Part shown: one piece after another, positions 9,301 to 56,872 of the stretch
How positions within the stretch are numbered: position 1 is the first letter of the stretch
Layout: every line of letters begins with the position of its first letter
Origin: Diospyros lotus
Lineage: Eukaryota; Streptophyta; Magnoliopsida; Ericales; Ebenaceae
Direction of reading: 5' to 3'
DNA length: 64,000 nucleotides
Assembly: GCF_014633365.1 (NCBI RefSeq)
Contig: NC_068341.1
Location: 4,092,001-4,156,000, forward strand
The notes under the pieces: generated by a model
Database searches by the model: none
The model's input: only the letters and a program-made list of their open reading frames with translations
What the model was told of the DNA's origin: nothing
Made by a program: the position numbers and the translations under genes

Positions 9301-10148
9301 GAGCGGGTGATTAGTGGTTAATTTTATAAAAATTTTGTTATAATTATACCCCTTCTTTTGATCTTAAAAATAGTTTAAATTAGATATTAATATATATTTT
9401 ATGATTTTATGCAAGTTTAAATTGAAAAATGAATGAAATGAAATTTTAAAGTAAAATTTAATAATAATAATAATAATATATAAAATTATATATAATACAT
9501 ATACATCATTATATGCATTCATGTAATATATATAATATAATATAATATATATATGTGCCATGTGTAATACATATATATAATATATAATTTATTAATAATA
9601 TTAAATTATTTTTATTTTTTTTAGGCATGAAGAATTAAAGCTCATGAAGACTTAAAGTCCATGAAGAATTCAAGTCCATGAAGAAATCAAACCCATGGAG
9701 AAATCAAGCCCATGAAGAATTCAAGTCCATGAAGAAATCAAGCACATGAAAAATTAAAGTCCATGAAGAATTTAAGCCCATGAAGAATTAAGGCCCAATT
9801 TGAGCAACCCATGGAAGATATTATTTGGAGAAGGCCCAAGGATTATTTTTAATCCTAATGAAGATTAAAAATCAATTTATAGAAATCTATTTTTATTTTT
9901 TATGTGAGAGCTTTATTAGGTGTGTTTTTTAGCTAAAATCCACTTAACTATTAGGTGGATATTATAGCTAAAATCCATTTAACTTTATGAGTGCTTTATT
10001 AGGTATGTATTTTAGCTAAAATCCATTTAATATTAGGTGTGTATTATAGCTAAAATCCATTTAACTTTAAGTGTGTGAGTGCCCATTAGATATAATTATG
10101 TCTAATTGAATAATTGAAATTGTGTGGTTTGTATTGCATCTTGTGGCC

Positions 10149-10156
10149 TATAAATA
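10149..10156 (+). promoter_or_regulatory. TATA box in LTR of LOG element copy 1
   Basis: TATAAATA inside GGCCTATAAATAGCTCAC. The same box is at 17556-17563 in the second LTR and, reversed, at 58006-58013 in copy 2. Conservation in a diverged copy supports a working U3 promoter. Confidence 0.7.
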
Positions 10157-10340
10157 GCTCACTTGATTGCATTTGTAAGTGTGATTATTATTCTTGAATA
10201 AAAGTTTAGTTGTTTCCTTATAATTCTCTCTTTGAGAATTGTTCTTGTTCTTTCTCATTTTCTTTAGTACTTTCTCTTATAATCTTACTTTTTTCTTTCT
10301 TCTTTTAAATTCTTATGTCATTTATTATTACTTTATTATT

Positions 10341-10550
10341 CACCGCCTAAATGGCCGGTTAATTTGTGCCTTTAAATTTCTGCAATTTTAATTCTTGTCA
10401 TTTAATTATCCACCGCCTAAATGGCCGGTTAGTTTATGCCTTTAAATTTCTGCAATTTTAATTCTTGTCATTTAATTATCCACCGCCTAAATGGCCGGTT
10501 AGTTTATGCCTTTAAATTTCTTGTCATTTAAATTCTGTTATTTAAATTAC
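10341..10550. repeat. About 70-bp tandem repeat in LTR
   Basis: Three units starting CACCGCCTAAATGGCCGGTT at about 10341, 10411 and 10481, each followed by a TTTAAATTTCTGCAATTTTAA stretch. Three units also occur in the second LTR and the inverted LTR; copy 2 has about two. Confidence 0.85.
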
Positions 10551-11382
10551 GTCATTTAAATTTATGTCAATTAACTTTCAAATAAAAATGAGTAGTTAAA
10601 TCTAATCTTGGGTTAAGGCAAGGACAGTGTCCAACGCCAATGATTCCCAAAGAAAGCTGCGCTTTAAATAAGTAACATTAATTTAAATTTCAGTATGAGT
10701 GTGTATTAATTATTAAAAAAATCACTAGGTTTGGATTGGAGCGTAAGCCTAACTTAGAGCTTTCATGCCATGTATGAGAGTTACTAGAACTGGAAACGCT
10801 ATCATACCTAAACCCAGATGATTAATTTAGTTGTTTTGTGTATTAATTGCAATTGGATTTATGGTGGTTGCTTAAATTAGAATCTCGCATATCATGTATG
10901 GGGATTGCTTAATCTAGAACTATCATCATCTCTAATTGCATTTAATAACAAACTCTCATATCTGAAATTAAATTAATGTTGCTAATTTTTTTATGCTAAA
11001 ATTTGGGAATCAACGGGTTGGTACTGAAATTGTCTTAACTCAAGCACTATCCAAATTCATATTTTTACGTTTAATGTTTATTTCAATTTTTGCCTTACTT
11101 TATTTTCTAGTATCTGTTGTCTAAAAACAAAACCATAAAAAATCTTGTTGTCAATTTGTCCAAATGCGTGTGCGTGTGTGTGATATTCTTTTTCTTTTGC
11201 CATAAATAAATCTCTCAGTGGACGACCTGGATTCATCCAGAAAATATAAATTTAAATTTGGACTACAACTGCACTCGTACACTGGCGAGTATAAACCTCT
11301 CACTAAAATAAAAAAAATATAAAAGTTTTATTATGTTTTGTTTTTATTGTGTTTTAATTGCAGGGTGAGAGTGCAGTCAAAT

Positions 11383-11402
11383 TTTGGCGCCGTTGCCGGG
11401 GA
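11383..11402 (+). other. Primer-binding site of LOG element copy 1
   Basis: TTTGGCGCCGTTGCCGGGGA just after the LTR. This is a common primer site of plant Athila-like and related Gypsy elements. It recurs after the second LTR (about 18790-18809) and reversed at about 56848-56870 in copy 2. Confidence 0.8.
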
Positions 11403-11604
11403 GATTAAGGCAAAAACAAAAAGAAAAAAAAAAAAAAAAAAAAAAAGAATAAGTATCTCTTGATAAAATCGGTAACTCTATTTCTCTTTTACTTTATTTT
11501 TGTTTGTGCATTGTATATGAGACTGAGATCAGGTAGAATTTTGAAACAGTATTTTCATATCATTCTGAGTCTTTACCTGGAATTGGATTGTCAACTTTAC
11601 ATTC

Positions 11605-12843
11605 ATGTCTCAAAATTACTACAATCTGTCAGCACAAGATACTTATCATGATGAAAATTATCATTTTGAATCTGATTTGTCTAGACCTCTTAAGGATTAT
11701 CTATACTCTCTTAGGCAAACCACTTTTGATTTGCAATCAGACACTACCCATTTGTTACCCACTTACTATGAAATTGAGGTTTGGTGTGCTGTGTGTGAGA
11801 CTTCAGCTCATTTAACGGATGACTGCCCTATAATACCTGCTTTTAAGGAGGTATTGTATGGTCAATCTAGTTACACACACACACACAACTATGAGAGAAT
11901 GTATTACCAGAACCATGAGGAAAACTATCATTCGGACTTTGATGCATATCACCCTAATTCACACTTTCATCCAAATTTCTCATGGAAAAATGATTTTGTA
12001 GCCCAACCACATGAGCACTTCCTTTCCCAGCCTCAATCATTTCAAACGAATGAAGGGTCTACATTCGATGCATATCAACCCCCTCATGGGAGTTCATTAG
12101 AAGATACCTTCAATCTATTTATGCAAGGCCAAATGGAAATTTTTACGCAAATGTCCAAATGTCAAGAACATACCATTAGAGTTACAGAGGACATTAGGAA
12201 CCAATTGACACAGCTAACCCAGACTTTGAGCATGTCAGAGCCTGTCCATCCCAACTCACTCAAAATCCCAGTAATAAAACCCATCATCAAAAGTGAAAGT
12301 CAGGAGCAGGACATAGGAGTGACTGTCTTAAGGAATGGAGAAATAATTGAGAAACTTGATGCCCCTAGGACAGTACACCCTTTGGTGCAAGAAAAGAAAG
12401 TGGTTGATCACAGTGAGGTAGATGTCAATGAAGCCTTGGAGGACGAAAAAGACCAAAATGATGTAAGCAAAGAAGAAACCTGGGAGGAAGAAGAGGATAA
12501 AATTCGAGAGCCAAAATGTGAAAAAATCATAAGTTTATCCACATTTACCCCTCAATTTCCATCTTTTAGGTTAATCGATATTATTGAGGATCAAATTAAA
12601 CCAAACACGTGTAAGATGTTTGTGCAAATTAATGTGCCATACGCGGATATAATAAAACCAACACCTCCGGACGATATATTTTCAAAATATATATGTGCAT
12701 TCATGAGAAAAATCAATTTATATAATTTTGAAAATAAATTTAACAGTGGTGTAGTGAATGGGAGATATTATACGATTAGGTGGGCAACCGCTCATTTGAT
12801 CCTTAATGGGAAGAAAAGAAAAAAAAATTCTAAAAAAAAATAA
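11605..12843 (+). CDS. Gag-like protein of LOG element copy 1
   Basis: 412 codons. The start is supported by copy 2, which also begins MSQ. A zinc-knuckle-like CAVCETSAHLTDDC lies near residues 61-74. A Gln-rich, helix-prone segment follows at about 155-205 (NLFMQGQMEIFTQM, IRNQLTQLTQTL), then an acidic Glu-rich stretch near 275-310, and a block strongly shared with copy 2 (FVQINVPYADIIKPTPPDDI). The layout resembles the C-terminal half of Athila-type gag. The capsid domain is not obvious. There is no following protease or polymerase, so it may be only a structural remnant or packaging helper. Confidence 0.6.
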   Translation: MSQNYYNLSAQDTYHDENYHFESDLSRPLKDYLYSLRQTTFDLQSDTTHLLPTYYEIEVWCAVCETSAHLTDDCPIIPAFKEVLYGQSSYTHTHNYERMYYQNHEENYHSDFDAYHPNSHFHPNFSWKNDFVAQPHEHFLSQPQSFQTNEGSTFDAYQPPHGSSLEDTFNLFMQGQMEIFTQMSKCQEHTIRVTEDIRNQLTQLTQTLSMSEPVHPNSLKIPVIKPIIKSESQEQDIGVTVLRNGEIIEKLDAPRTVHPLVQEKKVVDHSEVDVNEALEDEKDQNDVSKEETWEEEEDKIREPKCEKIISLSTFTPQFPSFRLIDIIEDQIKPNTCKMFVQINVPYADIIKPTPPDDIFSKYICAFMRKINLYNFENKFNSGVVNGRYYTIRWATAHLILNGKKRKKNSKKK

Positions 12844-13033
12844 ATAAAAATATAATAAAATAATTTTATATATATATATATACATATAAGTTGTTCCTTT
12901 TCTTCATTACTTAACTAGTGTTTCTCTATATGCAGTCTAAATAAAATTTCTCCATACGAGTTTATGTATTGAAGACCGCCAGGTATGCCTATCTTCTATC
13001 CTTTTATTGCCAATTGAGGACAATACGCAATTT

Positions 13034-13045
13034 AAGTTGGGGGGT
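13034..13045 (+). other. Internal polypurine-tract-like motif 1
   Basis: AAGTTGGGGGGT, preceded by TTGAGGACAATACGCAATTT. It matches the tract directly before the 3' LTR (16702-16713) but lies before the cassette rather than at an LTR. Confidence 0.55.
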
Positions 13046-13192
13046 AAGGTGTCTACAAAATTTTACCTAAAAAAAAAAAAAATTAAAACAAAATTAATTA
13101 AAAAAAAAAATTGAATTGAGAGAGACAGAATTGACGCTGGTGGTAGCCATCTTTTCTTGGGCAGTGCAATCACACTGCCCTATAAAGAAAGA

Positions 13193-13358
13193 AGGCACAC
13201 TGCCAAATGTTGAAAACAGAGGCGCCGAGCGTTGAAAAAAAAAAAGGCACACTGCCAAATGTTGAAAAATGAGACGCTAAACGACGTCAAGTCTGACGGT
13301 GCAATTATGGCATGCCTCGAGTCGAGTGTAGAATAGTGATGCCCATTGCTCTATAAGA
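13193..13358 (+). promoter_or_regulatory. Possible separate promoter of the ORF1-LOG cassette
   Basis: A direct repeat GGCACACTGCCAAATGTTGA occurs at about 13193 and 13245. An as-1-like pair follows (GACGTCA at 13283-13289 and TGACG at 13294-13298), then CTATAAGA at 13351-13358, about 150 bp before the first start codon. Copy 2 keeps the TATA-like motif (reverse, 55060-55067) and one GGCACACTGCCAAATGTT unit; its TGACG pair is not clearly kept. A promoter for the cassette independent of the LTR is inferred only. Confidence 0.35.
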
Positions 13359-13507
13359 GACTCCATATCTGTATAAGGCAAGTCACCCCTCTTGAGCTCA
13401 ATCTTCTCTCCTTTGTGTTATTCTCCGATCAGGTACTCTCATCCCTTTTGTAAAGTTTATAGTTCTTTACTTTCTTCTTAGTATAATTTTTTTTAAAAAA
13501 AAAAAAA

Positions 13508-14053
13508 ATGGATCTTTATCTCTCAAAAATTCACAAGTACTATCCATCTCTCCCGCAGAATGATTTGAAAAAAATTTATGTTGCTAGGTGTGAAAGACTT
13601 AGGTTGTTGATGCTTAATAACATCCCTGAAGATATTCGTTGGCTGATCGAAGCAAAAGTTCGATTAGCTGGTGAAACTTCACCTAGTTTTAAGCATTTTC
13701 CAGGCTTAGGGAAGAGTAGTTTTGCGAAGAAAAGAAGAGCGAAAAGAGTGAATGGTTGTTACAAATGTGCTCGATGGATCTGTAACACACGATGCAAATC
13801 TGTGGGGTTTACGTCCATAAATTGAGAAGATAAAATTAGTTTCATAAAGGATGGACTGAGTAAGGAGTCTCTGGATGATATCCGATTGACTCTTGAGACG
13901 CATCCATGTGGAATAGTGCAAAGAGAACTTCTTGCTTTATGGACCCAGTTCAGAAGTGACCACCAACGCTATAGTCTTGGAAATCTGACTAAAAAAGACC
14001 CTGTTTGCCAATCTATAAGAAAATTGGATGGGAAGCTTATCCCCGCTTCATAG
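13508..14053 (+). pseudogene. Cassette ORF1, basic Cys-rich protein (copy 1, one stop)
   Basis: A 181-codon frame interrupted once, by TGA at codon 106 (13823-13825). The start follows a long A run. The N-terminal 60 residues are helical and charged. The centre has GKSSFAKKRRAKRV followed by CYKCARWICNTRC, a basic patch directly before a four-Cys motif (C-x2-C-x4-C-x3-C). That arrangement resembles the small Cys-rich nucleic-acid-binding proteins of carlaviruses and relatives, but the similarity is short. Copy 2 (54360-54905) has the same 181-codon frame with no net length change and its own, different stop, so the protein was coding until recently. A plant or retroelement zinc-binding protein is the alternative. 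Confidence 0.55.
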
Positions 14054-14095
14054 AAAGTGTTTAAGCCGTTTCTGGACGTAAAACCAGAGGAAGAT

Positions 14096-14200
14096 GTGAG
14101 CCACAATCACAACTACTTATATATACGCAAGATTTTTGTTTGTATTTATTTCTTGTTGAATTGTTATATAGCTACTTTTGATCTCCAAACTTCTTTTCAG
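14096..14200 (+). other. Conserved 105-nt intron-like segment between ORF1 and LOG
   Basis: GAT|GTGAGCC at the left and a pyrimidine-rich CTTCTTTTCAG|GACATAC at the right. Copy 2 has the same boundaries and also 105 nt (54213-54317, minus). The LOG start codon follows 20 nt after the acceptor. Splicing is inferred from consensus and conservation. Confidence 0.5.
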
Positions 14201-14220
14201 GACATACAAAAGAAACAAAC

Positions 14221-14880
14221 ATGGAAGGGCAGTTCGTTCGTCAAATTAAAACCATATGTGTACTTTGTGGCTCTCAACTTGGGAGTGATATTTGTTACGC
14301 ACTTGCAGCGAGCGAACTTGGTAAAAAACTAGGAGAGAAAAAAATTAATTTGGTATATGGAGGGGGAAGTCGTGGATTGAATGGTTATGTTTCACAAGCT
14401 GTACATCTTGGAAATTCATCTGTGGTAGGTGTAATGCCAATCCCTTTAGCTGAACCACATATTTCCGGGATTACACGCGGTCAACTTATAGAAACGACTT
14501 CTATGTCTGAGCGCATGGCTTGTAAGATTTATCAGTCAGATGCCTTCATTGCTTTACCAGGAGGTTTTGGAACACTTGAAGAAATCTTTTGTATAATCTC
14601 CTGGGCCAAGAGTAATCTCCATACCAAACCCATTGGACTTTTAAATGTTAACCATTTTTTCGATGGGTTACTCTCTTTTCTTGATCAGGCTGTGGACCAA
14701 CAGTTCATTTCTCGTTCAGCAAGAAAGATTCTCATTTCTGCATCCACCATTGATAAGCTGCTAGAGAAATTACATGCTTATGTTCCACAGTACGATCCTC
14801 ATGAGCCTCGGATAGACTGGTCTAAGGCAATTAGTAACAAGCGCCAAAGGGGTCCGATTAATTTAGATTTATCACTGTGA
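14221..14880 (+). CDS. LOG-type cytokinin riboside 5'-monophosphate phosphoribohydrolase carried by retrotransposon (copy 1)
   Basis: 219 codons, complete, close to the usual 210-240 residues of plant LOG proteins. LOG enzymes cleave cytokinin nucleotides to free-base cytokinin plus ribose 5-phosphate in the cytosol. Seen here: ICVLCGSQLG at residues 12-21, YGGGSRGLNG at 46-55, SERMACK at 96-102 with the Arg at 98 in the place of the conserved Arg, PGGFGTLEE at 113-121 (the PGGxGTxxE signature), and KPIGLLNVNHFFDGLLSFLD near 135-154. The C-terminus after about 190 is unlike canonical LOGs. There are no introns, whereas host LOG genes are normally multi-exon, so it probably derives from an RNA copy. 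It is read in the same sense as the element. Activity is unproven; the odd Met/Cys around Arg98 could change it. Confidence 0.85.
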   Translation: MEGQFVRQIKTICVLCGSQLGSDICYALAASELGKKLGEKKINLVYGGGSRGLNGYVSQAVHLGNSSVVGVMPIPLAEPHISGITRGQLIETTSMSERMACKIYQSDAFIALPGGFGTLEEIFCIISWAKSNLHTKPIGLLNVNHFFDGLLSFLDQAVDQQFISRSARKILISASTIDKLLEKLHAYVPQYDPHEPRIDWSKAISNKRQRGPINLDLSL

Positions 14881-14889
14881 GAAATGCTC

Positions 14890-14939
14890 TTTGATAAGAT
14901 GGCTGAGTAAGGAGTACTTTTTGTACTCTTGAGACGCAT
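14890..14939 (+). repeat. 50-bp hairpin repeat, unit 1, downstream of LOG
   Basis: A perfect stem GAGTAC-TTTTT-GTACTC at 14912-14928, inside a 50-bp unit that starts TTTGATAAGATGGCTGAGTA and recurs at 15054-15103. It begins about 10 bp after the LOG stop. Both units also exist in copy 2. Confidence 0.85.
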
Positions 14940-15053
14940 CTAGTTATTGTACACCTTGCAGGATTTTTCTTGGTTGTGTTCTTTAAAAAAAAAAAAAAAA
15001 CAAAAAAAAACAAAAAAAAAAAAACAAAACTGTGGAATGTTGTTAGCAAAGTC

Positions 15054-15103
15054 TTTGATAAGATGGCTGAGTAAGGAGTACTTTTTGTACTCTTGAGACG
15101 CAT
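15054..15103 (+). repeat. 50-bp hairpin repeat, unit 2
   Basis: Identical by eye to 14890-14939, 164 bp downstream. An A/C-rich stretch lies between the two. A related longer version lies inside ORF1 at about 13854-13905, with the same outer arms (CTGAGTAAGGAGT ... ACTCTTGAGACGCAT). Confidence 0.85.
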
Positions 15104-16714
15104 TTTGCTTATCTCATGACTTGCATGAAATTTTTATTTTGGTGTGAAAATATAAATATATATCTATATGGTGTGCTCATTTGTTGTTTAAGTTTTAGCA
15201 GTTCACAGCAAATCTATGGACTTGTGGAGTTACAGGTATTCCTAACAACCCTGATTTATTACTGCAATTCAAGTTGGGGGGTGTAAGGTCTAGTCATGAA
15301 TCATCTGGTTTATATTTAACTGTGAGTTTGTAATTACTAGTTTGTAGTCTTGTGGGAATTGATTGTCTTTATCTACTCTTATAAAAAAAAAAAAAAATTA
15401 TTATGTGTTTTAAATAATGCTATTCCTAAAGCTTTAAAGTTATGCACTGATAGCCGGTTAAGTTTGCAATACGAAACATGAATGCATTGATTTCTCATTT
15501 GAAAACGTTTATGCATGAGAATAAGTAATTTACATTCATCAGGGATTCAAAATTTAGAAATTGGTTATCGGTCATAAAGTCAAAGGTAACAGTAATTAGC
15601 TGATTAGTACACTGTATGATCCCTCAACAGAAGTGGAGACTATTACCCAAGCAAGTGTTTGAGCCTAATAACCGTTAATTCTGAGTGAAATAACACTTAC
15701 TCTAAATATGCTCTCTTGTTTATCTTATCTTTTCAATGGCTTCAAAATATCAATTCGCTTTGAATGTCTAGTATGATAGCGGATGAATTTGACTGGTTTC
15801 AAACTATGAATTAGATGACTGAGAAGCATGATAGGGGGATCAATTTCTTTCATTTTGAGCCTATTTTTTTTTCTTTAAATCAACCTCTTGTTAGCCCATT
15901 TGAGCCATTTGTAGTACAACTTCTTTCGTTACCCTTGTTTAACCCATAACCATATGAATTTTATCCAATCTGGTGTGATTTTGGGAATTAGTCTGTTTAT
16001 CTATTTTCATATTTAAAAAGAAAAAGAAAAAAAAAGAAAAAAAAAGAAAAAAAAAAGTGAAAAAAAGGGGGGCAAATTCTCTTAGTTATTCAGCATAACT
16101 GTTTCAAAATGAATGCTAAAAAAAAAAAAAAAAATTCCCGACACACCCTTTGCACACTCTACCTTTTCTTTGACAACCCGTATTAACCTTATAGCCCCAT
16201 TACAACCCAGTCTGGTCCCTTTTGATGCTATAAATCATGTGATCTCAGAATTCGAGTTTGGAGTAGGAAATCATGTTTAAATTCAGAAGTTACTCGTCTA
16301 GAGCATTATTCCAATCATGAAGCTATGTCAATTTCCCTGTTCTTTCATGAAAATACGTTCCTTGTATTTGGGATGGCACCGAGTTTTGAACTTGTTCTGC
16401 ATTTACTCTTATAACGGTGCACCCCCTTGTGTGTACACTTGAGGAATCCTTTTTATTGGAGAGAAAATCCATAATAAGATTTGAAGTCAAAACTTCGAGG
16501 GAGTAAGTCTGTGTGTTGGTTATCCTAATTTCCATTCCTGAGATTGTATGACCTTTAACCAAAAATCTGATTTAGAATGCTAAATTATTTATTTAATTTT
16601 ATGCATTTCGGTTTCGAATTTGAAATTTTTACATTCATACAGTTATTGTGAATAAAGTTTGGTAGGTGTATAATCTGATTGCTAAGGGACTAGCAATGTT
16701 TAAGTTGGGGGGTA
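15104..16714 (+). other. Non-coding 3' part of LOG element copy 1
   Basis: No convincing gene. It holds a second internal polypurine-like motif (AAGTTGGGGGGT, 15271-15282), an A/G-rich tract near 16016-16070 and the true polypurine tract at 16702-16713. Much of it can be aligned by eye to 51729-53340 of copy 2, so it is part of the family's body, perhaps for RNA packaging or replication. Confidence 0.6.
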
Positions 16715-18786
16715 TGATTAGTGGTTAATTTTATAAAATTTTTGTTATAATTATACCCCTTCTTTTGATCTTAAAAATAGTTTAAATTAGATATTAATAT
16801 ATATTTTATGGTTATATGCAAGTTTAAATTGAAAAATGAATGAAATGAAATTTTAAAGTAAAATTTAATAATAATAATAATAATATATAAAATTATATAT
16901 AATACATATACATCATTATATGCATTCATGTAATATATATAATATAATATAATATATATATGTGCCATGTGTAATACATATATATAATATATAATTTATT
17001 AATAATATTAAATTATTTTTATTTTTTTTAGGCATGAAGAATTAAAGCCCATGAAGACTTAAAGTCCATGAAGAATTCAAGTCCATGAAGAAATCAAACC
17101 CATGGAGAAATCAAGCCCATGAAGAATTCAAGTCCATGAAGAAATCAAGCACATGAAAAATTAAAGTCCATGAAGAATTTAAGCCCATGAAGAATTAAGG
17201 CCCAATTTGAGCAACCCATGGAAGATATTATTTGGAGAAGGCCCAAGGATTATTTTTAATCCTAATGAAGATTAAAAATCAATTTATAGAAATCTATTTT
17301 TATTTTTTATGTGAGAGCTTTATTAGGTGTGTTTTTTAGCTAAAATCCACTTAACTATTAGGTGGATATTATAGCTAAAATCCATTTAACTTTATGAGTG
17401 CTTTATTAGGTATGTATTTTAGCTAAAATCCATTTAATATTAGGTGTGTATTATAGCTAAAATCCATTTAACTTTAAGTGTGTGAGTGCCCATTAGATAT
17501 AATTATGTCTAATTGAATAATTGAAATTGTGTGGTTTGTATTGCATCTTGTGGCCTATAAATAGCTCACTTGATTGCATTTGTAAGTGTGATTATTATTC
17601 TTGAATAAAAGTTTAGTTGTTTCCTTATAATTCTCTCTTTGAGAATTGTTCTTGTTCTTTCTCATTTTCTTTAGTACTTTCTCTTATAATCTTACTTTTT
17701 TCTTTCTTCTTTTAAATTCTTATGTCATTTATTATTACTTTATTATTCACCGCCTAAATGGCCGGTTAATTTGTGCCTTTAAATTTCTGCAATTTTAATT
17801 CTTGTCATTTAATTATTCACCGCCTAAATGGCCGGTTAGTTTATGCCTTTAAATTTCTGCAATTTTAATTCTTGTCATTTAATTATCCACCGCCTAAATG
17901 GCCGGTTAGTTTATGCCTTTAAATTTCTTGTCATTTAAATTCTGTTATTTAAATTACGTCATTTAAATTTATGTCAATTAACTTTCAAATAAAAATGAGT
18001 AGTTAAATCTAATCTTGGGTTAAGGCAAGGACAGTGTCCAACGCCAATGATTCCCAAAGAAAGCTGCGCTTTAAATAAGTAACATTAATTTAAATTTCAG
18101 TATGAGTGTGTATTAATTATTAAAAAAATCACTAGGTTTGGATTGGAGCGTAAGCCTAACTTAGAGCTTTCATGTCATGTATGAGAGTTACTAGAACTGG
18201 AAACGCTATCATACCTAAACCCAGATGATTAATTTAGTTGTTTTGTGTATTAATTGCAATTGGATTTATGGTGGTTGCTTAAATTAGAATCTCGCATATC
18301 ATGTATGGGGATTGCTTAATCTAGAACTATCATCATCTCTAATTGCATTTAATAACAAACCCTCATATCTGAAATTAAATTAATGTTGCTAATTTTTTTA
18401 TGCTAAAATTTGGGAATCAACGGGTTGGTACTGAAATTGTCTTAACTCAAGCACTATCCAAATTCATATTTTTACGTTTAATGTTTATTTCAATTTTTGC
18501 CTTACTTTATTTTCTAGTATCTGTTGTCTAAAAACAAAACCATAAAAAATCTTGTTGTCAATTTGTCCAAATGCGTGTGCGTGTGTGTGACATTCTTTTT
18601 CTTTTGCCATAAATAAATCTCTCAGTGGACGACCTGGATTCATCCAGAAAATATAAATTTAAATTTGGACTACAACTGCACTCGTACACTGGCGAGTATA
18701 AACCTCTCACTAAAATAAAAAAAATATAAAAGTTTTATTATGTTTTGTTTTTATTGTGTTTTAATTGCAGAGTGAGAGTGCAGTCA
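16715..18786 (+). repeat. 3' LTR (second direct LTR) of LOG element copy 1
   Basis: 2072 bp, preceded by AAGTTGGGGGGTA. Nearly identical to 9308-11379. Unlike a normal 3' LTR it is followed by another primer site and leader (18787-18843), as if it were also the 5' LTR of a further unit. Confidence 0.9.
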
Positions 18787-18864
18787 AATTTTGGCGCCGT
18801 TGCCGGGGAGATTAAGGCAAAAACAAAAAGAAAAAAATAAAAAAATACACACTCATACTGAAAT
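18787..18864 (+). other. Second primer site plus leader and filler at rearrangement junction
   Basis: AATTTTGGCGCCGTTGCCGGGG and an A-rich leader as at 11380-11440, then a ~20-bp piece (ACACACTCATACTGAAATTT, about 18846-18865) copied from inside the inverted LTR, where it occurs again at about 18946. The inverted LTR starts after this filler. Confidence 0.7.
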
Positions 18865-20298
18865 TTAGTAACTCTCATACATGGCATGAAAGCTCTAAGT
18901 TAGGCTTACGCTCCAATCCAAACCTAGTGATTTTTTAATAATTAATACACACTCATACTGAAATTTAAATTAATGTTACTTATTTAAAGCGCAGCTTTCT
19001 TTGAGAATCATTGGCGTTGGACACTGTCCTTGCCTTAACCCAAGATTAGATTTAACTACTCATTTTTATTTGAAAGTTAATTGACATAAATTTAAATGAC
19101 GTAATTTAAATAACAGAATTTAAATGACAAGAAATTTAAAGGCATAAACTAATCGGCCATTTAGGCGGTGGATAATTAAATGACAAGAATTAAAATTGCA
19201 GAAATTTAAAGGCATAAACTAACCGGCCATTTAGGCGGTGAATAATTAAATGACAAGAATTAAAATTGCAGAAATTTAAAGGCACAAATTAACCGGCCAT
19301 TTAGGCGGTGAATAATAAAGTAATAATAAATGACATAAGAATTTAAAAGAATAAAGAAAAAAGTAAGATTATAAGAGAAAGTACTAAAGAAAATGAGAAA
19401 GAACAAGAACAATTCTCAAAGAGAGAATTATAAGAAAACAACTAAACTTTTATTCAAGAATAATAATCACACTTACAAATGCAATCAAGTGACCTATTTA
19501 TAGGCCACAAGATGCAATACAAACCACACAATTTCAATTATTCAACTAGACATAATTATATCTAATGGGCACTCACACACTTAAAGTTAAATGGATTTTA
19601 GCTATAATACACACCTAATGTTAACTGGATTTTAGCTAAAATACATACCTAATAAAGCACTCATAAAGTTAAATGGATTTTAGCTATAATATCCACCTAA
19701 TAGTTAAATGGATTTTAGCTAAAAAACACACTTAATAAAGCTCTCACATAAAAAATAAAAATAGATTTCTATAAATTGGATTTTAATCTTCATTAGGATT
19801 AAAAATAATCCTTGGGCCTTCTCCAAATAATATCTTCCGTGGGTTGCTCAAATTGGGCCTTAATTCTTCATGGGCTTGAATTCTTCATGGACTTTAATTT
19901 TTCATGGGCTTGATTTCTTCATGGACTTGAATTCTTCATGGACTTTAAGTCTTCATGGGCTTGAATTCTTCATGCCTAAAAAATAAAATAAAAATAATTT
20001 AATGTTATTAATAAATTATATATTATATATATGTATTACACATAGCACATATATATATTAGATTATATTATATATATATATTACATGCATGCATATAATG
20101 ATGTATATGTATTATATATAATTTTATATATTATTATTATTATTATTAAATTTTACTTTAAAATTTCATTTCATTCATTTTTCAATTTAAACTTGCATAT
20201 AACCATAAAATATATATTAATATCTAATTTAAACCATTTTTAAGATCAAAAGAAGGGTATAATTATAACAAAATTTTTACAAAATTAACCATTAATCA
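18865..20298 (-). repeat. Inverted, truncated LTR of the LOG element family
   Basis: Reverse complement of roughly the first 1,450 bp of the LTR, from its TGATTA start (at 20298) to the ATGAGAGTTACT stretch. It shows clearly more differences from LTR1 and LTR2 than they do from each other, so it comes from another copy of the family. The U5 end is missing. Confidence 0.85.
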
Positions 20299-26717: not shown

Positions 26718-27827
26718 CTATACTAGGGCGAAAAAGGAAAACCATAAAAAATATATCACCAGTGGAAGTTCCAATTCCATCTCGCTGCGTGGCGTCGCGA
26801 CAGCGTTCCTTGTTATTAATTCACTAAAGCCGGGGGCTTCTCTATAGTGAATTGCGGCGGCGACGGCGGCCGGGGTGGCGCCTATGATGGAGCTAGGGGC
26901 GGAGGCGGAGGAGATGGCGGCGGCCACGAAGTCGTCCTGGAAGAGGAATTGGTCCACAATCATGGTGCTTGGCTCTGCCACCAGGCTCTCCCAGGCGCCG
27001 CCGGCGTTGCCCCGCCGCTTCAGGAACGCCTCCGTCGCGTCGATCCATTGGAGGTTCCACTCCATCTGGTTCTGCAGCCTGAGAATGTTCTGCAACTGGC
27101 AGCAAGCTAATTTGCAAGTGTTCGACTTGATCTTCTCGATCGCTTCTCGGAACAGAGTCGCCCTGGTTTCTTCATCGCCGGTCGATTCGGATCTCAAAAA
27201 CTCGTCCATTTCCGGAACTCCAATAGCTCGGCGGATCCCGCGGGTATAATCCGCTTCTGGATCGAAGATTTCCCTGACTTCGTTTACCAAACCGTCTCTG
27301 ATCATCCGGTCGACTCGCTCCGATACGAATGAGTGAAGAACGGGGAAGGAAACGTCAACCCAAAGAAAGCAGAAATCGTATTTAGACTGGAATTCAATTT
27401 CGTCGTTCACCAGGGCCTTGATGTAAGAATTGGAGTCGCCGGCGATGATCGGGAGGCGGTAGCGGCTGACGATGGCGTCGATGGCGAGCGACGCGTGCTG
27501 GCGGAAATCGGCGGCGGTGAAGTCGGCACTAGGGTCGACGAAGCCGAGCAAGTGGTGGGGGAAACCGTGGCACTCTTCTTCGCTGACCTTGTTGGTAACT
27601 ATGTCGAGGCCTTTGTAGACTTGCATTTTGTCGGAATTGACAATCTCGGCGGGGAAGCGGGCGGCGAGGTCGATGGAGAGCCTGGATTTTCCGGTTCCCG
27701 TGGCGCCCATCACCACCACTACCTTGTCCTTCCGCCGCCGAGTGATGAAGGGTTCCATGTTCAGCCCCCCCGGGAAGCTCACCAGGGGCTGCGCCTGCTT
27801 GCAGGCAGACAGTGAGACTCTCATCAT
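26718..27827 (-). CDS. IPT: Adenylate isopentenyltransferase (cytokinin synthase)
   Basis: 369 codons, intronless as is usual for plant adenylate IPTs. The enzyme transfers dimethylallyl from DMAPP to ATP/ADP, the first step of isoprenoid cytokinin synthesis, usually in plastids. Seen: P-loop GATGTGKS at residues 41-48, EIVNSDKMQVYKGLDIVTNK at about 60-79, PHHLLGFVDP at about 89-98, YDFCFLWVDVS near 149, ADYTRGIRRAIGVPEMDEF near 193. Met1 fits the family start (MRxSxSxCKQ), and an internal Met24 precedes the kinase-like core. Oddities: PIIAGDSNSY where the family usually has GGSNSY, and a longer C-terminus ending in a hydrophobic tail. Its product, once riboside monophosphate, is the substrate type of LOG enzymes. 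Closest to the IPT3/IPT5 group by memory only. Confidence 0.9.
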   Translation of the reverse strand: MMRVSLSACKQAQPLVSFPGGLNMEPFITRRRKDKVVVVMGATGTGKSRLSIDLAARFPAEIVNSDKMQVYKGLDIVTNKVSEEECHGFPHHLLGFVDPSADFTAADFRQHASLAIDAIVSRYRLPIIAGDSNSYIKALVNDEIEFQSKYDFCFLWVDVSFPVLHSFVSERVDRMIRDGLVNEVREIFDPEADYTRGIRRAIGVPEMDEFLRSESTGDEETRATLFREAIEKIKSNTCKLACCQLQNILRLQNQMEWNLQWIDATEAFLKRRGNAGGAWESLVAEPSTMIVDQFLFQDDFVAAAISSASAPSSIIGATPAAVAAAIHYREAPGFSELITRNAVATPRSEMELELPLVIYFLWFSFFALV

Positions 27828-49396: not shown

Positions 49397-51728
49397 TGGC
49401 TGCACTCTCACCCTGCAATTAAAATACAAAACAAAACACAATAAAAATTTTATTTATTTATTTTTGTTTATTTAGGTGAGAGGTTTATACTCGTCAGTGT
49501 ACGAATGCAGTTGTAGTCCAAATTTAAATTTATACTTTCTGGATGAGTCTAGATCGTCCACTAAGAGATTTATTTATGGAAAAAGAAAAAGAATGCCACA
49601 CACGCACACACATTTAGATGGATTGGTAACAAGATTTTTTTTTATGATTTTTAGATAACAGATACTAGAAAATAAAGCAAGATAAAAGTTGAAATAAATA
49701 CTTAATGTGAGAATATAAAATTGGATAGCACTTGAGTTAAGACAATTTCAACACCAACCCGTTAATTCCCAAATTTTAGCATATAAGGTTAGTAACATTA
49801 ATTTAATTTCAAATATGAGAGTTTGTTACTAAATGCAATTAGAGATGATGATAGTTCTAGTTTAATCAATCCCCATACATGATATGCGGGATTCTATTTT
49901 AAGCAACTACCATAAATCCAATTACAATTAATATACAAAACAACTAAATTAATCATCCAGGTTTGGGTATGATAGCGTTTCCAGTTCTAGTAACTCCCAT
50001 GCGTGACATGAAAGCTCTAAGTTAGGCTTACGCTATAATCCGAACCTAGTGATTTTCTAATAATTAAAACATATTCATACTGAAATTTAAATTAATGTTA
50101 CTCATTTAAAGCGCAGCTTTCTTTGGGAATCATTGGCGTTGGATACTGTTCTTGTCTTAACCTAAGATTAGATTTAGCTACTCATTTCCACTTAAAAGTT
50201 AATTAACAAGAATTTAAATGGCATAATTTAAATAATAGAATTTAAATGACAAGAATTAAAATAGCAAAAACTAACTGGCCATTTAGGCGGTGGATAATTA
50301 AAAGACAAGAATTAAAATTATAGAAATTTAAAGGCAGAAATTAACCGGCCATTTATGCGGTGGATAATAAAGTAACAATAAATGACATAAAAATTTAAAA
50401 GAAGAAAGGAATGAAGTAAGATTACAAAAGAAAATAAGAGAGAGAATAAGAGTAATTCTCTAAGAGAAATTTTAAGAATAAAACTAAACTTTGATTCAAA
50501 TAATAACCACCTTCCTCCCAAATGCACCAAAGTGAGCTATTTATAGTCCACAAGATGCAATACAAACCACACAATTATTCAACTAAACATAATTATATCT
50601 AATGGGCTGTAATACCCCGAGAGCCCAGAGAAGTTAGTATATATTGAGGATAGTGTAAGAAAGAAAACAACACCAGCTGGATACCTTTTGGGCTGAATGT
50701 TGGCAAAGAACTTCCAAGTTAAGCATGCTTGACCTGGGGTAATCCAGGGATGGGTGACCCTCCTGGGAAGTTCGAGTAGGCCCATCAGGGTAAGTTGTTC
50801 CGGATCTTCCTATCACTCGAACGGGATGTTACAGGTGGTATCAGAGCCGACCCCCGAGCCTCTGAGCGCAGTGGTGGGGTAAACCTCAGCGAAGAGGCTG
50901 AGTCTTGAGGGGTGTGTGTGTAGGCCCCTATGGGGGGTGCGTGTAGGCACCTTAGGCAAATCCCACATCGGCCATGCAACGGGGGGAGCTCTGGGACCAG
51001 TTGTAAGGTCGCATGACGAGGACGTCATGTGCTTAAGGGAGGGAGAATGTAATACCCCGAGAGCCCAGAGAAGTTAGTATATATTGAGGATAGTGTAAGA
51101 AAGGAAACAACACCAGCTGGATACCTTTTGGGCTGGATGTTGGCAAAGAACTCCCAAGTTAAGCGTGCTTGACCTGGGGTAATCCAGGGATGGGTGACTC
51201 CCCTGGAAAGTTCGCGTAGGCCCATCAGGGTAAGTTGTTCCGGATCTTCCTATCACTCGAACAGGATGTTACATGGGTACTCACAAAACATTCACTTAAC
51301 TAATGAAAGAAAATTAGGTAAAAGACAAAAAATACCAAAGATTTTAGGTGGTGAACTACTCATAAAAATACAAAAGACTTTAGGTGGTAAATCACTTATA
51401 AAAAAATACAAAACAAAGAAAAGTTTTCTACAAGTTGGGCTTTTGTTGGGCATTTGGTTGGTCTTGGGCCTTTGGTTGGATTCCATTTGATAGTTGGGCC
51501 AAGTGCACTTGAAACATCCTCCAGACTCCATAATTGACCTTTGAATTTGAGCAATAAAAATGAGTAATCCAATGTCTTCAATTATGCCCCTAATTAATTG
51601 TAGAAGCCAACTTCCTTGCTTCATCCTGAAATAATATGTAATACGAATAATTATTTACTTTAAGCATAAATATAAAGCCAAAATAGGGATATAATTGATT
51701 AGGATATAGGAAATATTGACCCTTATCA
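49397..51728 (-). repeat. 3' LTR of LOG element copy 2, split by Cassandra
   Basis: Starts (plus strand) TGGCTGCACTCTCACC and ends GACCCTTATCA. Interrupted at 50608-51273. It carries the same 70-bp-type CCGGCCATTTAGGCGGTGG repeats and reversed splice-acceptor-like CTGCAATTAAAA as the other LTRs. Confidence 0.88.
50608..51273 (+). mobile_element. Cassandra TRIM retrotransposon with 5S rRNA-like LTRs
   Basis: 666 bp: LTRs 50608-50833 and 51048-51273 (226 bp each, TGTAATACCCCG ... GGATGTTACA), primer site TGGTATCAGAGC (50836-50847, complementary to initiator Met tRNA) and purine tract AAGGGAGGGAGAA (51035-51047). Flanks TGGGC (50603-50607) and TGGGT (51274-51278). Each LTR holds a 5S rRNA-like stretch (CCAAGTTAAGCATGCTTGAC ... 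GGGATGGGTGAC), the hallmark of Cassandra elements, which may be read by RNA polymerase III. No coding capacity, as usual. Confidence 0.93.
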
Positions 51729-53350
51729 CACCCCCCAACTTGAATATTGCTAGTCCCTTAGCAATTAGATTATACACCAGCCATGATCTAATCGCAATAC
51801 TTGCATGAATATAAAAATTTCAAATTCGAAACCAAAATGCGTAGAGTAGTTTGGCATACAGTCGAATATTCAAAATCAGATTTCTGGTTAAAGGTCATAC
51901 AATCTCAGGAATGGCAATCAGGATGACCAATACACAGATTTACTCCCTCGAAGTTTTGATTTTAAACCTTAATGTGGATTTTTCCTCCAATAAAACGATT
52001 CCTCAGGTGTACACACAAGGGGGTGCACCGTTATAAGAGTAAATGTAAAACAAGTTCAAAACTCGGTGTCATCCCAAATACAAGGAACGTATTTTCATGA
52101 AAGAATGGGGAAATTGACATAGCTTCATGACTGGAATAATGCCCTAGATGAATAACTTCTTAATTTAAACATAATTCCCTATTCTGAACTCAAATTCTGA
52201 GATCACATAATTTATAGCATCAAAAGGGATTAGACCGGATTATAATGGGGTTATGAGGTTAATACAGGTTGTCAAAGAAAATGATAGAGTATGCAAATGG
52301 TGTGGTGGGATTTATTTATTTATTTTTTTTAACATTTGTTTTGAAACAATTGTGCTGAATAGCTAAGAGAATTTTTTCTTTTTTCTTTTTTTTTCACTTT
52401 TTTTTAACATGAAAATAGCTAGACAGACTAATTCCCAAAATCACACCAGGTTAGACAAAATTCATATGGTTATGGGTTAAACGATAGTAACGAAAGAAAT
52501 TGTACTACAAATGGCTCACATAGGCTAGCAATGGAGGTTAATATAAAGAAAGAAAAAGGTTAATATGCCCAAAATAAAAGAAATTGATCCCCCTATCATG
52601 CTTCTACAAAACAATGTTACTCAGTCATCTAATTCGAAATTTGAAACCAGTCAAATTCATCCGCTATCATACTAGACATTCAAGGTGAATTAATGTTTTG
52701 AAGCCATTGAAAAGATGAGATAAACAATAAAGTATATTTAGAGTAAGTGTTATTTCACTCAGAATTAACGGTTATTAGACTCAAACACTCACTTGGAAAA
52801 TAGTCTCCACTTCTGTTGAGGGATCATACAGTGTACTAATCAGCTAATTACTATCACCTTTGACTTTATGACCGATAACCATTTTTTTTTTTAATTTTTA
52901 ATACCCGATGAATGCAAATTACTTGTTCCAATGCATATAGGTTTTCAAATAAGAAATCAATGCATTCATGTTTCGTATTGCAAACTTAACCAGCTATTAG
53001 TGCATAACTCCAAAGCTTTAGGAATAGCGTTATTTAAAACATATTTATTTATTTATTTATTTATTTTTATAAGAGCAGATAAGGATAATCAATTCACACA
53101 AGACTGCAAGCTAGCAATAGCAAACTCACAGTTAAATATGAATCAGATAATTTATAACTAGACCTTACACCCCCCAACTTGAATTGCAGTAATAAATTAG
53201 GGTTGTTAGGAAAATCTGTAACTTCACAAGTCCATAGATTTACTGTGAACTGCTAAAACTCAAACAAACAAATGAGCATACCATATATGTATATTTTTTA
53301 TATTTTCACACTAAAATAAAAATTTCATGCAAGTCATAAGATAAACAAAA
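51729..53350 (-). other. Non-coding 3' part of LOG element copy 2
   Basis: Counterpart of 15104-16714. The CACCCCCCAACTTGAAT motif (reverse of the polypurine tract) occurs at 51728-51744 beside the LTR and again at about 53168-53184. A third, degenerate one is near 55425-55442. Confidence 0.6.
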
Positions 53351-53360
53351 TGAGTCTCAA

Positions 53361-53498
53361 GAGTACAAAAAGTACTCCTTACTCAGCCATTTTATCATAG
53401 ACTCGTCTAACAACATTCCACAGTTTTTTTTAGGAACACAAGAAAAGAAATTTCGTACAAGTCATAGGAGATGCGTCTCAAGAGTACAAAAAGTACTC
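53361..53498 (-). repeat. Pair of hairpin repeats downstream of LOG copy 2
   Basis: GAGTACAAAAAGTACTC at 53361-53377 and 53482-53498, each inside a CGTCTCAAGAGTAC ... CTTACTCAGCCAT unit. Stem, loop length and number of copies are the same as in copy 1; the spacing is shorter (121 bp against 164). Confidence 0.85.
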
Positions 53499-53528
53499 CT
53501 TACTCAGCCATCTTATCATAGACTTGCC

Positions 53529-54188
53529 TTACAGAGATAAATCTAAATTAATCAAACCTTTTTGGCGCTTGTTTCTGATTACCTTAGACCAATCTATCCG
53601 AGGCTCATAAGGATCGTGCTGTGGAACATAAGCGTATAATTTTTCTAGTAGCTCCTCAATGGTAGATGCAGAAATGAGAATCTTTCTTATTGAAAAAGAA
53701 ATGAACTTTTGTTCCACAGCCTGATCAAGAAAAGAGAGCAACCCATCAAAAAAATGGTTAACATTTAAAAGTCCAATGTGTTTGGTATGGAGATTGCTCT
53801 TAGCCCAGGAGATTATACAGAAGATTTCTTCAAGTGTACCAAAACCTCCTGGTAAAGCGATGAAGGCGTCTGACTGATAAATCTTACAAGCCATGCACTC
53901 GGACATAGAAATCGTTTCTATAAGTTGACCACGTGTAATCCCGAAAATACGTGGTTCAGAGAAAGGGATTGGCATTACACCTACCACATATGTTTTTCCA
54001 AGATGTGCAGCTTGTGAAACACAACCATTCAATCCACGACTTCCCCTTCCGTATATCAAATTAATTTTTCTTTCTCCCAATTTTAGGCCTAGTTCGCTTG
54101 CTGCAAGTGCGTAACTACTGTCGCTCCCGAGTTGAGAGCCACATAGTACACATATGGTGTTGATTCGACGAACTAACTGACCTTCCAT
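53529..54188 (-). CDS. LOG-type protein carried by retrotransposon (copy 2), key residues changed
   Basis: 219 codons, same length and ends as copy 1 (MEGQ ... INLDLSL). About 34 residues differ by eye. The PGGFGTLEE signature is intact, but the glycine-rich motif reads YGRGSRGLNG (Gly48 to Arg) and the Arg98 position is Cys (SECMACK). Both changes are in positions expected to bind the nucleotide, so this copy is probably inactive as a phosphoribohydrolase even though it is still open. The upstream 105-nt intron-like segment and leader are as in copy 1. Confidence 0.8.
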   Translation of the reverse strand: MEGQLVRRINTICVLCGSQLGSDSSYALAASELGLKLGERKINLIYGRGSRGLNGCVSQAAHLGKTYVVGVMPIPFSEPRIFGITRGQLIETISMSECMACKIYQSDAFIALPGGFGTLEEIFCIISWAKSNLHTKHIGLLNVNHFFDGLLSFLDQAVEQKFISFSIRKILISASTIEELLEKLYAYVPQHDPYEPRIDWSKVIRNKRQKGLINLDLSL

Positions 54189-54359
54189 TTATATTTGTTC
54201 TTTATGTATGCCCTGAAAAGAGATTTGGTGATCAAAAGTAGGTATACAAAAATTCAACAAGAAATAAACACAAATAAAAATTATGCATATGTACAAATAG
54301 TTGTGATTGTGGCTCACATCTTCCTCTGGTTTTACGTCCAGAAACGGTTTAAACACCTT

Positions 54360-54905
54360 CTATGAAGTGGGGATAAGCTTCCCATCCAATTTTCTTAAAA
54401 ATTGGCAAACATGGTCGTTTTTAGTCAAATTCCCAAGACTATAGCGTTGGTGGTCACTTATGAACTGGGTCTATAAAGCAAGAAGTTCTCTTTGCACTAT
54501 TCCACACGGATGCGTCTCAAGAGTCAATCGGATATCATCCAAAGACTCCTTACTCAGCCCATCCTTTATGAAACTAATTTTATCTTCTCGATTTACGGAC
54601 GTAAACCCCACAGATTTGCATTGTGTGTTACAGGTCCAACGAGCACATTTGTGACAACCATTTACTCTTTTTGCTCTTCGTTTCTTCGCAAAACTACTCT
54701 TTCCCAAACCTGAAAAATGCTTAAAACTAGGTGACGTTTTGCCTAGTAATCGAACTTTTGCTTCAATCAACCAGCGAATATCTTCAGGGATGTTATTATA
54801 CATCAACATTCTAAGTCTTTCACACCTAGAGGCATAAATTTTTTTTAAATCATTCATTGGGAGAGATGAATAGTACTTGCAAATTTTTGAGAGTTGAAGA
54901 TCCAT
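54360..54905 (-). pseudogene. Cassette ORF1, basic Cys-rich protein (copy 2, one stop)
   Basis: 181-codon frame with a single TAG at codon 145 (54471-54473), a different place from copy 1. The four Cys are kept (CHKCARWTCNTQC) after the basic patch SSFAKKRRAKRV. The frame then ends at the same TAG as copy 1. Absence of indels between two otherwise diverged copies argues that the frame was under coding constraint. The role is unknown; RNA binding is an inference from the motif. Confidence 0.55.
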
Positions 54906-55626
54906 TTTTTTTTTTATTAAAACACAACTATAATAAAATAAAACTAAAAACTATGAATCTTGCAAAATGAACGAGAGTACCTGATCGGAGAACAACACGA
55001 AGGAAAGGAGACTGAGCTTGCTTGCAGAAGTGTGGCTTACCTCATTCAAATATGGAGTCTCTTATAGAGCAATGTGTATCACTATTCTACATTCGGCTCG
55101 AGGCACGCCATAATTGTAGGGTCAGGCGTGTCTCTTTTTTCAACGCTCGGTGCCTCATTTTTTAACATTTGGCAGTGTGCCTCTTCCTTTATAGGACAGT
55201 ATGATTGCACTGCCCGAGAAAAATGGCTACCACCAATGTTAATTCTGTCTCTCTCAATTCAATTTTTTTTTGTTTTTTTATTATATATATTTTTTTAGGG
55301 TTTTTTTTTTTTAGAAGCCTAATAAAATTATATATATACCACACGAGACAATATTATCGAGTCAAATAAAATTATTTGCACAATGTATCAATTTCAAACA
55401 CCAATAAATCAATTCTTAAGTACACCTTACCACCAACTTGAATTGTGCATTGTCCTCAATCAGTAATAAAAGGATAGAAGATAGGCATACCTGACAGTCT
55501 TTAGTGCATGAACTCGTATGTAAAAATTTTATTTAAACTGCACACAAAGAAACACTATTTAAGTAATGCAGAAAAGGAACAACTTATATGTATATATATA
55601 TACTTCTTATATATATATATATTTAT

Positions 55627-56658
55627 TTATTTTTTTAAAAAAAATATTTTATTATATATTTTTATTTTATTTTTTTTAGAGTTTTTTTTTCTTTTTTTCC
55701 AGTTAAGGATCAAATGAGTGGTTGCACACATACTCATATAATAACTCCCATTCGTTACACCAATTTTAAAGTTATTTTCAAAATTATGTAAATTGATTTT
55801 TCTCATGAATGCACATACATATTTTGAAAATATATCATCCGGAGGTGTTGGTTTTATTACATCAGAGTACGGCACATTAATTTGCACAAACACCTCACAC
55901 ATGTTTGGTTTAATTTGATCCTCAATAATATCGACTAGCCTAAAAGATAGAAATTTAGGCTTAAATGTGAATAAACTTATGACATCTTCACATTTTGGCT
56001 CTCGGATTTTATTCTTTTCTTCCTCCTAGGTTTCTTCTTTTCTCACATCATTTTAGTCCAATTTTTCTTCTATGATTGCTTGTACCATCATAGGTTCATC
56101 AAGTCTCTCAATTGACTCATCATTCCTAGGGATGGATATAAATTGGACCAACTCTTGACCTATGCGTGCATTGAATGACAATTTCCCCCCTTTGGAATTT
56201 TGATTAGGTTGGTTCGGAAACTCGCCAGGCTCACTCACGCTCGAGGTCTGTGTAAGCTCAATCAATTGTTCTAAAATGTCACATATGGTCCTAGTGGTTT
56301 GTTTTTGAAATTCGGCCACTTGTGCATTAAAACTCATTTGACCTTGCATAAACTCCTGAAGGGTGTCCTCTAAAAAATTTTCATCCTGAGGTTGATAAGT
56401 ATCAGATCTAACCCCTTGTTCTAACTTGAATTGGTGAGATACTGGAGAGAAAGGTTCATGAGATTGGAACAAAGAGTCATCATTCCAAGGATAATTCCAA
56501 TTGTCATATGAACTAGGGTAATCAGTGTAAAGATCTGGGTGGTAGCCTGACAGATAAGAATTCTCCCCCTGACTCTGGTTAAAAGAAAACCTCTTATCAC
56601 TGGGATCGGAATGGCCAAATGCATTAGAAGACACATAAATGCTAAAATATTGAGACAT
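55627..56658 (-). pseudogene. Gag-like protein of LOG element copy 2, broken
   Basis: Starts MSQ at 56658, open for 201 codons to a stop at 56053, resuming to 55627. Shared with copy 1: LEDTLQEFMQGQMSFNAQV, EQLIELTQTSSVSEP, and the FVQINVPYSDVIKPTPPDDI block. The N-terminal region with the zinc-knuckle-like Cys motif of copy 1 is absent or replaced. Confidence 0.55.
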
Positions 56659-56872
56659 GAAGAATATGAAAATGACAATTCAATGACAGATAATGATGTT
56701 AATAAATCAATTAATGTTTCAATAATCATACCTGACCGTAGTCTCTTGCACTGTTTAGTAATTAATAGTTATCTAAATATATTTTTTATTTTTTTAATTT
56801 ATAATTTTATTTTTTTAATTTATAATTTTTTTTTTTTTTGCCTCAATCTCCCCAGCAACGGCGCCAAAATTT

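Follow-up and report, generated by a model that had tools for sequence, protein, structure and literature searches.

Why does a gene of a cytokinin-activating family stand between the long terminal repeats (LTRs) of a retrotransposon? The question is raised by a frame at 14221–14880 (+) in the Diospyros lotus sequence studied here, a stretch of 64,000 nt called the window below. LONELY GUY (LOG) enzymes release free-base cytokinins. An earlier note on this DNA took the frame for an intact LOG gene that a recently moved element had captured from a host (or other) mRNA, and saw in it a new kind of transposon cargo, able to raise active cytokinin.

The LOG-like gene and its fold

The frame is complete and open over 219 codons, as that note had it, and its 219-aa product carries the motifs GGGSRGLNG and PGGFGTLEE as well as the conserved catalytic Arg. 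The catalytic Glu is also in place, within the pattern PGGxGTxxE. Membership in the LOG family is borne out by matches to Pfam PF03641 (114.8 bits, cut-off 27) and NCBIfam TIGR00730 (147.2 bits, cut-off 96.35) and by the predicted fold: the AlphaFold model has a mean pLDDT of 88.9, and its top match in the PDB is Arabidopsis At2g37210 (TM 0.95 when normalised by target length and 0.76 when normalised by query length). The equivalog model for the cytokinin enzyme, NF058542, gave 91.9 bits for this protein, and a second score of 72, both below its cut-off of 300 and compared with that cut-off alone.

Two elements of one family in the window

The gene lies in sense orientation inside an insert at 9308–20298 (element 1). 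The 5' LTR (9308–11379, +) is 2072 bp long and runs from TG to CA, and the second LTR (16715–18786, +) has the same length. The alignment of the two spans 2131 bp with 10 differences, 9 of them inside the 2072-bp LTRs, the number that had been counted by eye; the LTR pair is young. A primer-binding site at 11385–11402 (+), after the first LTR, is presumably of the tRNA-Asp type. Non-chromovirus gypsy elements are described as having tRNA-Asp among their primers (PMC6317226). A frame of 412 aa at 11605–12843 (+) is gag-like by position only; it has no Pfam family above a cut-off, and shares 49.8% identity over 299 columns with its counterpart in the second element described below. Between this frame and the LOG-like gene is a third frame (13508–14053, +), here called NABP, of about 181 codons in its relatives and with a stop at codon 106 here.

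The marks of an LTR retrotransposon in element 1 are the LTR pair, the primer-binding site, a purine-rich stretch and flanks that form an imperfect duplication (GCGGG on one side, ACGGG on the other). Element 1 is no simple insertion. A repeat of the primer-binding region (18787–18845, +) follows the second LTR, and an inverted LTR fragment (18866–20298, −) closes the insert with an LTR 5' end. The insert starts with TGATTAG and ends with CTAATCA; an LTR 5' end forms each edge, the two in opposite orientations, and the insert looks like an aberrant integration product. Its likely host is another element, at 2060–22150, with gag and pol frames (integrase, reverse transcriptase and RNase H), a Transposase_28 frame in antisense (Retand-like) and end repeats that share 95.7% identity over 399 bp.

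The gene is not a lone copy: another member of the family, element 2, lies at 49397–58473 (−). Element 2 is flanked on both sides by CATAG, a perfect 5-bp duplication, and has a primer-binding site and an LTR pair. Its 5' LTR (56873–58473, −) is 1601 bp and its 3' LTR (49397–51728, −) is 2332 bp, so that a 671-bp gap is needed to align them; 1481 of 1572 aligned positions are identical. The LOG-like gene in this element (53529–54188, −) is also open and encodes 219 aa, with a Gly-to-Arg change in GGG and Cys in place of the catalytic Arg. It is probably dead as an enzyme, given these two changes. A stop-to-stop frame with NABP at 54471–54950 (−) stops at NABP codon 145. With NABP cut at codon 106 in one element and 145 in the other, an intact pair of NABP and LOG-like genes is missing from both window elements. 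The second LOG copy, the NABP frame of virus type and the EAR-like tail discussed below had all been overlooked in the earlier note, which had otherwise described the LTRs and the gene correctly.

Scans of 11 of the 43 stop-to-stop frames (at least 45 aa) of element 1, and of 4 of the 34 in element 2, revealed no pol domain. A tblastn search with the Retand gag-pol pieces of the window and the integrase of a relative (contig L001, below) had no match inside either element, a search that distant remnants may escape. From these results the element is most likely a non-autonomous derivative without pol. The family is probably of Ty3/gypsy type and may be of the Athila lineage. The NABP-bearing relative L001 has an integrase.

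Between the two elements, DNA identity is 89.4% in the LOG-like gene, 90.8% in NABP, 84.4% in the gag-like part (441 aligned positions) and 87.1% in the other aligned DNA. The comparison of dN/dS among copies that had been suggested earlier was made for a single pair, the two window copies, and gave 0.33 for the LOG-like gene (219 codons, 95% bootstrap 0.19–0.59). For NABP the same pair gave 0.31 (179 of 181 codons, 95% bootstrap 0.16–0.57). Values below 1 in both genes are what purifying selection plus some post-insertion drift would lead one to expect, as far as one pair can indicate.

Each element also has three copies of a hairpin stem with a conserved internal loop, one within NABP and two past the LOG-like gene. 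In element 1 these are at 13846–13909 (+, inside NABP) and, in non-coding DNA downstream of the LOG-like gene, at 14894–14945 and 15058–15109 (both +); in element 2 they are at 54504–54567, 53465–53516 and 53344–53395 (all −). The arms are near identical and the apical parts differ, and RNA folding z-scores range from −1.66 to −3.52. Rfam had no match at gathering cut-offs in the 64,000-nt window, and a hammerhead-type reading was considered and dropped. Elsewhere in the window, the frame 26718–27827 (−) encodes 369 aa and belongs to the isopentenyltransferase family (PF01715 and PF01745). Enzymes of this type act upstream of LOG in cytokinin synthesis; the closeness of the frame to the LOG-bearing elements is probably chance.

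An old clade of LOG-like proteins

Of 7999 proteins scored in a search with the window protein, 7851 had E ≤ 0.001, and the best 120 of these were examined. The top match is a Diospyros lotus protein of 99% identity named LOGL10, and the other organisms among the matches listed include Reevesia, Diplodiscus, Pterospermum, Populus, Xanthoceras, Rehmannia and Nyssa. Some clusters are large (P0056, for instance, has 327 members), which fits a repeat family, cluster size not being equal to copy number. A canonical set was collected by a search from the Nyssa LOG P0096, with 119 further proteins among the matches listed, including Diospyros lotus LOG7 (P0288). LOG7 and the window protein share 49% identity.

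Two trees agree on its placement. With IQ-TREE (60 rows, tails left out), 41 retro-type rows, two of them from the window, form one group (support 100/95), which is joined by four Xanthoceras rows at 98/93; the 14 canonical rows are separate from it (97/91). With FastTree (239 rows), support was 0.94 for the retro group with Xanthoceras and 0.75 for the canonical group, and some branches within the retro group are weak, e.g. 0.72. On these trees the clade of the LOG-like protein is old, spread over eudicots and distant from Diospyros LOG7. On this placement in an old separate clade we reject the recent capture of a host LOG that had been proposed for the element; the gene would have been captured long ago, or have passed between plants. 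Every listed relative would be in a retroelement, judging by copy number and by pairing with NABP. A Xanthoceras sister group (P0057, P0090, P0106, P0110, P0113 and P0121) has an intact Lys/Glu pair and the end KKRRLA, and four further Xanthoceras gene models (P0006, P0007, P0009 and P0051) are tandem fusions.

Loss of the Lys/Glu pair in the base pocket

Residues of the active site were compared in the window protein and the best 120 of the 7851 matches; after the fusions and fragments P0006, P0007, P0009, P0051 and P0108 were dropped, 116 aligned hits were left. Among these listed matches the catalytic Arg is present in 112 and the catalytic Glu in 113. The Lys that follows the catalytic Arg is retained in only 9 of the 116 listed – six from Xanthoceras, P0092, and the canonical P0096 and P0102 – and is replaced by Met (34), Ile (39), Leu (32), Thr (1) or His (1) in the others. 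Its paired Glu, three residues past the catalytic Glu, is retained in the same 9 and missing in 107 of the 116, again among the matches listed. The pair is intact in all 119 listed canonical LOGs. Substitutes for the pair vary (Met, Ile and Leu; Gln, His, Cys and others), and both window copies have Met for the Lys and Cys for the paired Glu, and so lack the Lys/Glu pair that marks a LOG.

In the type-II LOG of C. glutamicum, according to the results given in PMC5379747, Ala at Arg155, Lys156, Thr175 or Glu178 abolishes activity wholly, and Lys156 and Glu181 contribute to the prenyl site and to a polar dimer contact. The paired Glu of the plant proteins was equated with Glu181 on the grounds of its distance from the catalytic Glu. 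Since the C. glutamicum enzyme is of another LOG type and was assayed on AMP, loss of cytokinin release in the window proteins is only a prediction. Cytokinin release by the element-1 protein is possible, if less likely. The cytokinin activation claimed in the earlier note is accordingly doubtful: family, fold and catalytic Arg speak for it, and the Lys-to-Met change, the lost Glu partner and the NF058542 score speak against it.

A basic patch and an EAR-like tail

The window protein has a C-terminal basic patch followed by an LDLSL tail, and ends in KRQRGPINLDLSL. LxLxL is the EAR motif, which binds TOPLESS corepressors, and it is present here in an exposed tail. Among the matches listed, LxLxL occurs in the last 12 residues in 93 of 121 hits and in 92 of the 111 hits of 205–230 aa; among the listed canonical LOGs it occurs in none of 119, and in shuffled proteins in 1.3%. 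The 19 exceptions of the 111 include cut tails, one-letter variants, the Xanthoceras end KKRRLA and two canonical LOGs. A basic patch, defined as three of five residues being Lys or Arg within the last 25, is present in 104 of 111 listed hits versus 1 of 119 listed canonical LOGs. The tail counts are non-independent – the form KLRLDL, seen in Populus, makes up 36 of the tails. Residues 207–219 have pLDDT below 50 in the AlphaFold model, as would suit a linear motif.

The order of branches in the tree bears on how these features arose. Xanthoceras branches first, with Lys/Glu kept and a basic tail without LxLxL, then P0092, with Lys/Glu kept and LxLxL present, and then the other 40 rows, in which Lys/Glu is lost and which group at 99/85. 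This order suggests that capture came first, then the tail, then the change in the pocket, with the rows being related and P0092 a single sequence.

The NABP partner gene

The NABP frame between the gag-like frame and the LOG-like gene matches two families of viral proteins: PF05515 (Viral_NABP) at 32.6 bits in element 2 and 27.5 in element 1 (cut-off 23), and PF01623 (Carla_C4) at 24.7 and 22.0 bits (cut-off 20.9). In element 1 the first piece, before the stop, passes both cut-offs alone. With the element-2 frame as query, 373 proteins were scored and 360 had E ≤ 0.001; the best 120 were examined. PF01623 matches all 120 of these listed relatives, and the named organisms among them are all flowering plants (Orobanche, Populus, Rhamnella, Striga and Xanthoceras). 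In 38 aligned relatives of the 120 listed, tested at E 0.01, PF01623 was found in 38 and PF05515 in 37. Four cysteines are invariant in the aligned relatives, the spacing CX2CX4CX3C is found in 110 of the 120 listed, and many relatives are 181–182 aa long. The NABP profile had no match to PDB sequences at E ≤ 1, and the structure model is poor (mean pLDDT 59.5).

Some NABP and LOG-like genes go together outside the window as well. Their domains are fused in two Orobanche gene models (P0136 and P0179). A LOG-like protein (P0024) and an NABP (P0133) both come from contigs of length 8723, and another such pair (P0080 and P0155) from contigs of length 4511; each pair is probably on one contig. In viral contigs, pattern matches to NABP and LOG were present and no relative was confirmed. 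Viral CRPs of the NABP kind are described in PMC12172455 as silencing suppressors and pathogenicity factors, and the CRP of chrysanthemum virus B as also a transcription factor that induces hyperplasia.

One NABP-bearing contig, L001 (DAIEQH010000041.1, 3330 bp), encodes an integrase at 194–1594 and, further along that strand, NABP at 1787–2347. Its NABP is identical to P0134, and passes the PF05515 cut-off while its PF01623 score of 20.4 is below 20.9. Seven LOG proteins used as queries found no LOG in L001 (best E 0.032), so there is none within the 983 bp past its NABP. The contig is filed under a Candidatus Nomurabacteria MAG and is a probable case of plant contamination in a bacterial MAG. 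The stretch after the NABP stop in element 1 (14054–14140, +) is conserved in its DNA with L001 2345–2434, and contains a short hairpin in which CTGG/CCAG of the window corresponds to CTAG/CTAG of L001, one paired change.

What the two genes may do

The reading that we prefer, with a probability of about one half, is that of a non-autonomous element with two old tandem accessory genes, NABP and a LOG derivative, that act on host silencing or transcription. The changed active site, the repressor-type tail and the adjoining suppressor-like gene make host manipulation probable over mere hormone making. The LTRs would drive expression of both frames, and the basic patches would bring both proteins into the nucleus. 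There NABP, a zinc-finger protein, would bind RNA or DNA and blunt silencing. The LOG-like protein, which keeps its catalytic Arg and Glu and its phosphoribose site but has lost the Lys/Glu pocket pair, may hold a nucleotide-type ligand, and its EAR-like tail may recruit TOPLESS-type corepressors. Host silencing or transcription would thereby be shifted to the advantage of the element. The observed basis consists of the frames in the order described, the fold as predicted, the altered residues including the lost Lys/Glu pair, the excess of LxLxL tails and basic patches, the low pLDDT of the tail, the retro clade and dN/dS of 0.33 and 0.31 in one pair; the Pfam matches of NABP, the Orobanche fusions and the suppressor role of viral CRPs also support this reading. 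Two frames kept in a derivative without pol would fit a benefit near the element, a fit weakened by the NABP stops. Also against it are the missing catalytic Arg in the element-2 copy, the L001 NABP with no LOG next to it, the non-independent tails, the single pair behind dN/dS and the weak branches within the retro group. The retained Arg, Glu and PGGxGT favour some catalysis.

Catalysis is central to two of the alternatives. A re-specialised phosphoribohydrolase, acting on another nucleotide such as a host-defence signal or a modified nucleotide and with a tail that sets location only, is rather unlikely: phosphoribose and catalytic residues are mostly kept with the pocket pair gone in 107 of the 116 listed hits, and the dN/dS of the LOG-like gene is low, but the variable pocket substitutes fit loss equally as well as a new substrate. 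Active LOG cargo that releases free-base cytokinins where it is expressed, pushing division, we consider unlikely. It would agree with the family, the fold and the near-universal Arg and Glu (112 and 113 of 116 listed), and a growth-promoting pair would fit an NABP family that includes a hyperplasia-causing viral factor. The window protein, however, has Met at the Lys whose change to Ala abolished the activity of the C. glutamicum type-II LOG on AMP, Cys for the paired Glu and an NF058542 score far from its cut-off, and the catalytic Arg is lost in element 2. That the gene is a passenger, captured and copied without use, is very improbable; the damaging changes in both NABP copies and in the element-2 LOG would be explained, but not one clade in several eudicot orders, dN/dS near 0.3, or a tail and catalytic residues that are mostly kept.

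The preferred reading, of accessory genes acting on silencing or transcription, has a bolder form that we offer as tentative, and that may well prove wrong. A widespread lineage of plant retrotransposons would carry an anti-silencing pair, with NABP as the suppressor and the LOG derivative as a nuclear nucleotide sensor whose EAR tail draws TOPLESS from or to loci. The steps would have been LOG capture, a basic tail, the EAR tail and the pocket change, in the order seen in the tree. If true, an enzyme of hormone metabolism has been turned into a transposon regulator of host chromatin.

Comparison with known systems

Extra genes of plant retrotransposons mostly have no known job, and the two here yield predictions that can be tested: silencing suppression by the virus-type protein and TOPLESS binding by the LOG-derived one. 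Transposon genes annotated as cytokinin enzymes, such as the 99% match named LOGL10, may inflate counts of the LOG family. The NABP frames also link the NABPs of RNA viruses with a gene family of plant transposons.

Steinbauerova et al. reportedly found two Athila-like elements similar to LOGL4 in 2011. In the account of PMC9289625, YgdH (LOG family) occurs in the gypsy consensuses of two Citrus species and, with the filter off, of Populus trichocarpa, and such LOG/YgdH extra ORFs are said to agree with Steinbauerova et al. 2011, cited there. LOG cargo in plant gypsy elements is therefore not new, having been in print in 2011 and 2022, and the idea of a new kind of cargo has to be given up. 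These elements resemble ours in having a LOG-family extra ORF in a plant gypsy element; their description in PMC9289625, as far as it was covered here, differs in being without a pocket change, an EAR-like tail, an NABP partner or a wider clade, and the terms NABP, Carla and 'nucleic acid binding' are absent from its main text. LOG is not mentioned in the covered portions of the review PMC7264820. Literature searches on LOG with Athila, on NABP or carlavirus CRPs with retrotransposons and on EAR or TOPLESS with LTR retrotransposons, which lay mostly outside subscription journals, found no NABP-LOG pairing. The old eudicot clade, the Lys/Glu loss, the LxLxL tail and the NABP neighbour are beyond the literature found.

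An AlkB-type m6A demethylase is carried by gypsy elements of orchids, as presented in PMC9289625; these likewise keep an extra enzyme domain, but the enzyme is different and no NABP partner is named. Canonical plant LOGs (LOG7, AtLOG3 and AtLOG8) have the fold, the catalytic Arg and Glu and PGGxGT in common with the window protein, which has lost Lys/Glu and gained the basic patch and LxLxL. The window NABP exceeds the Pfam cut-offs for the NABPs of carlaviruses, allexiviruses and mandariviruses (PF05515 and PF01623) and, like them, has a basic stretch with a Cys zinc finger after it; it differs in being borne by an LTR element, in the CX2CX4CX3C spacing of its relatives and in conservation that extends beyond the Pfam match.
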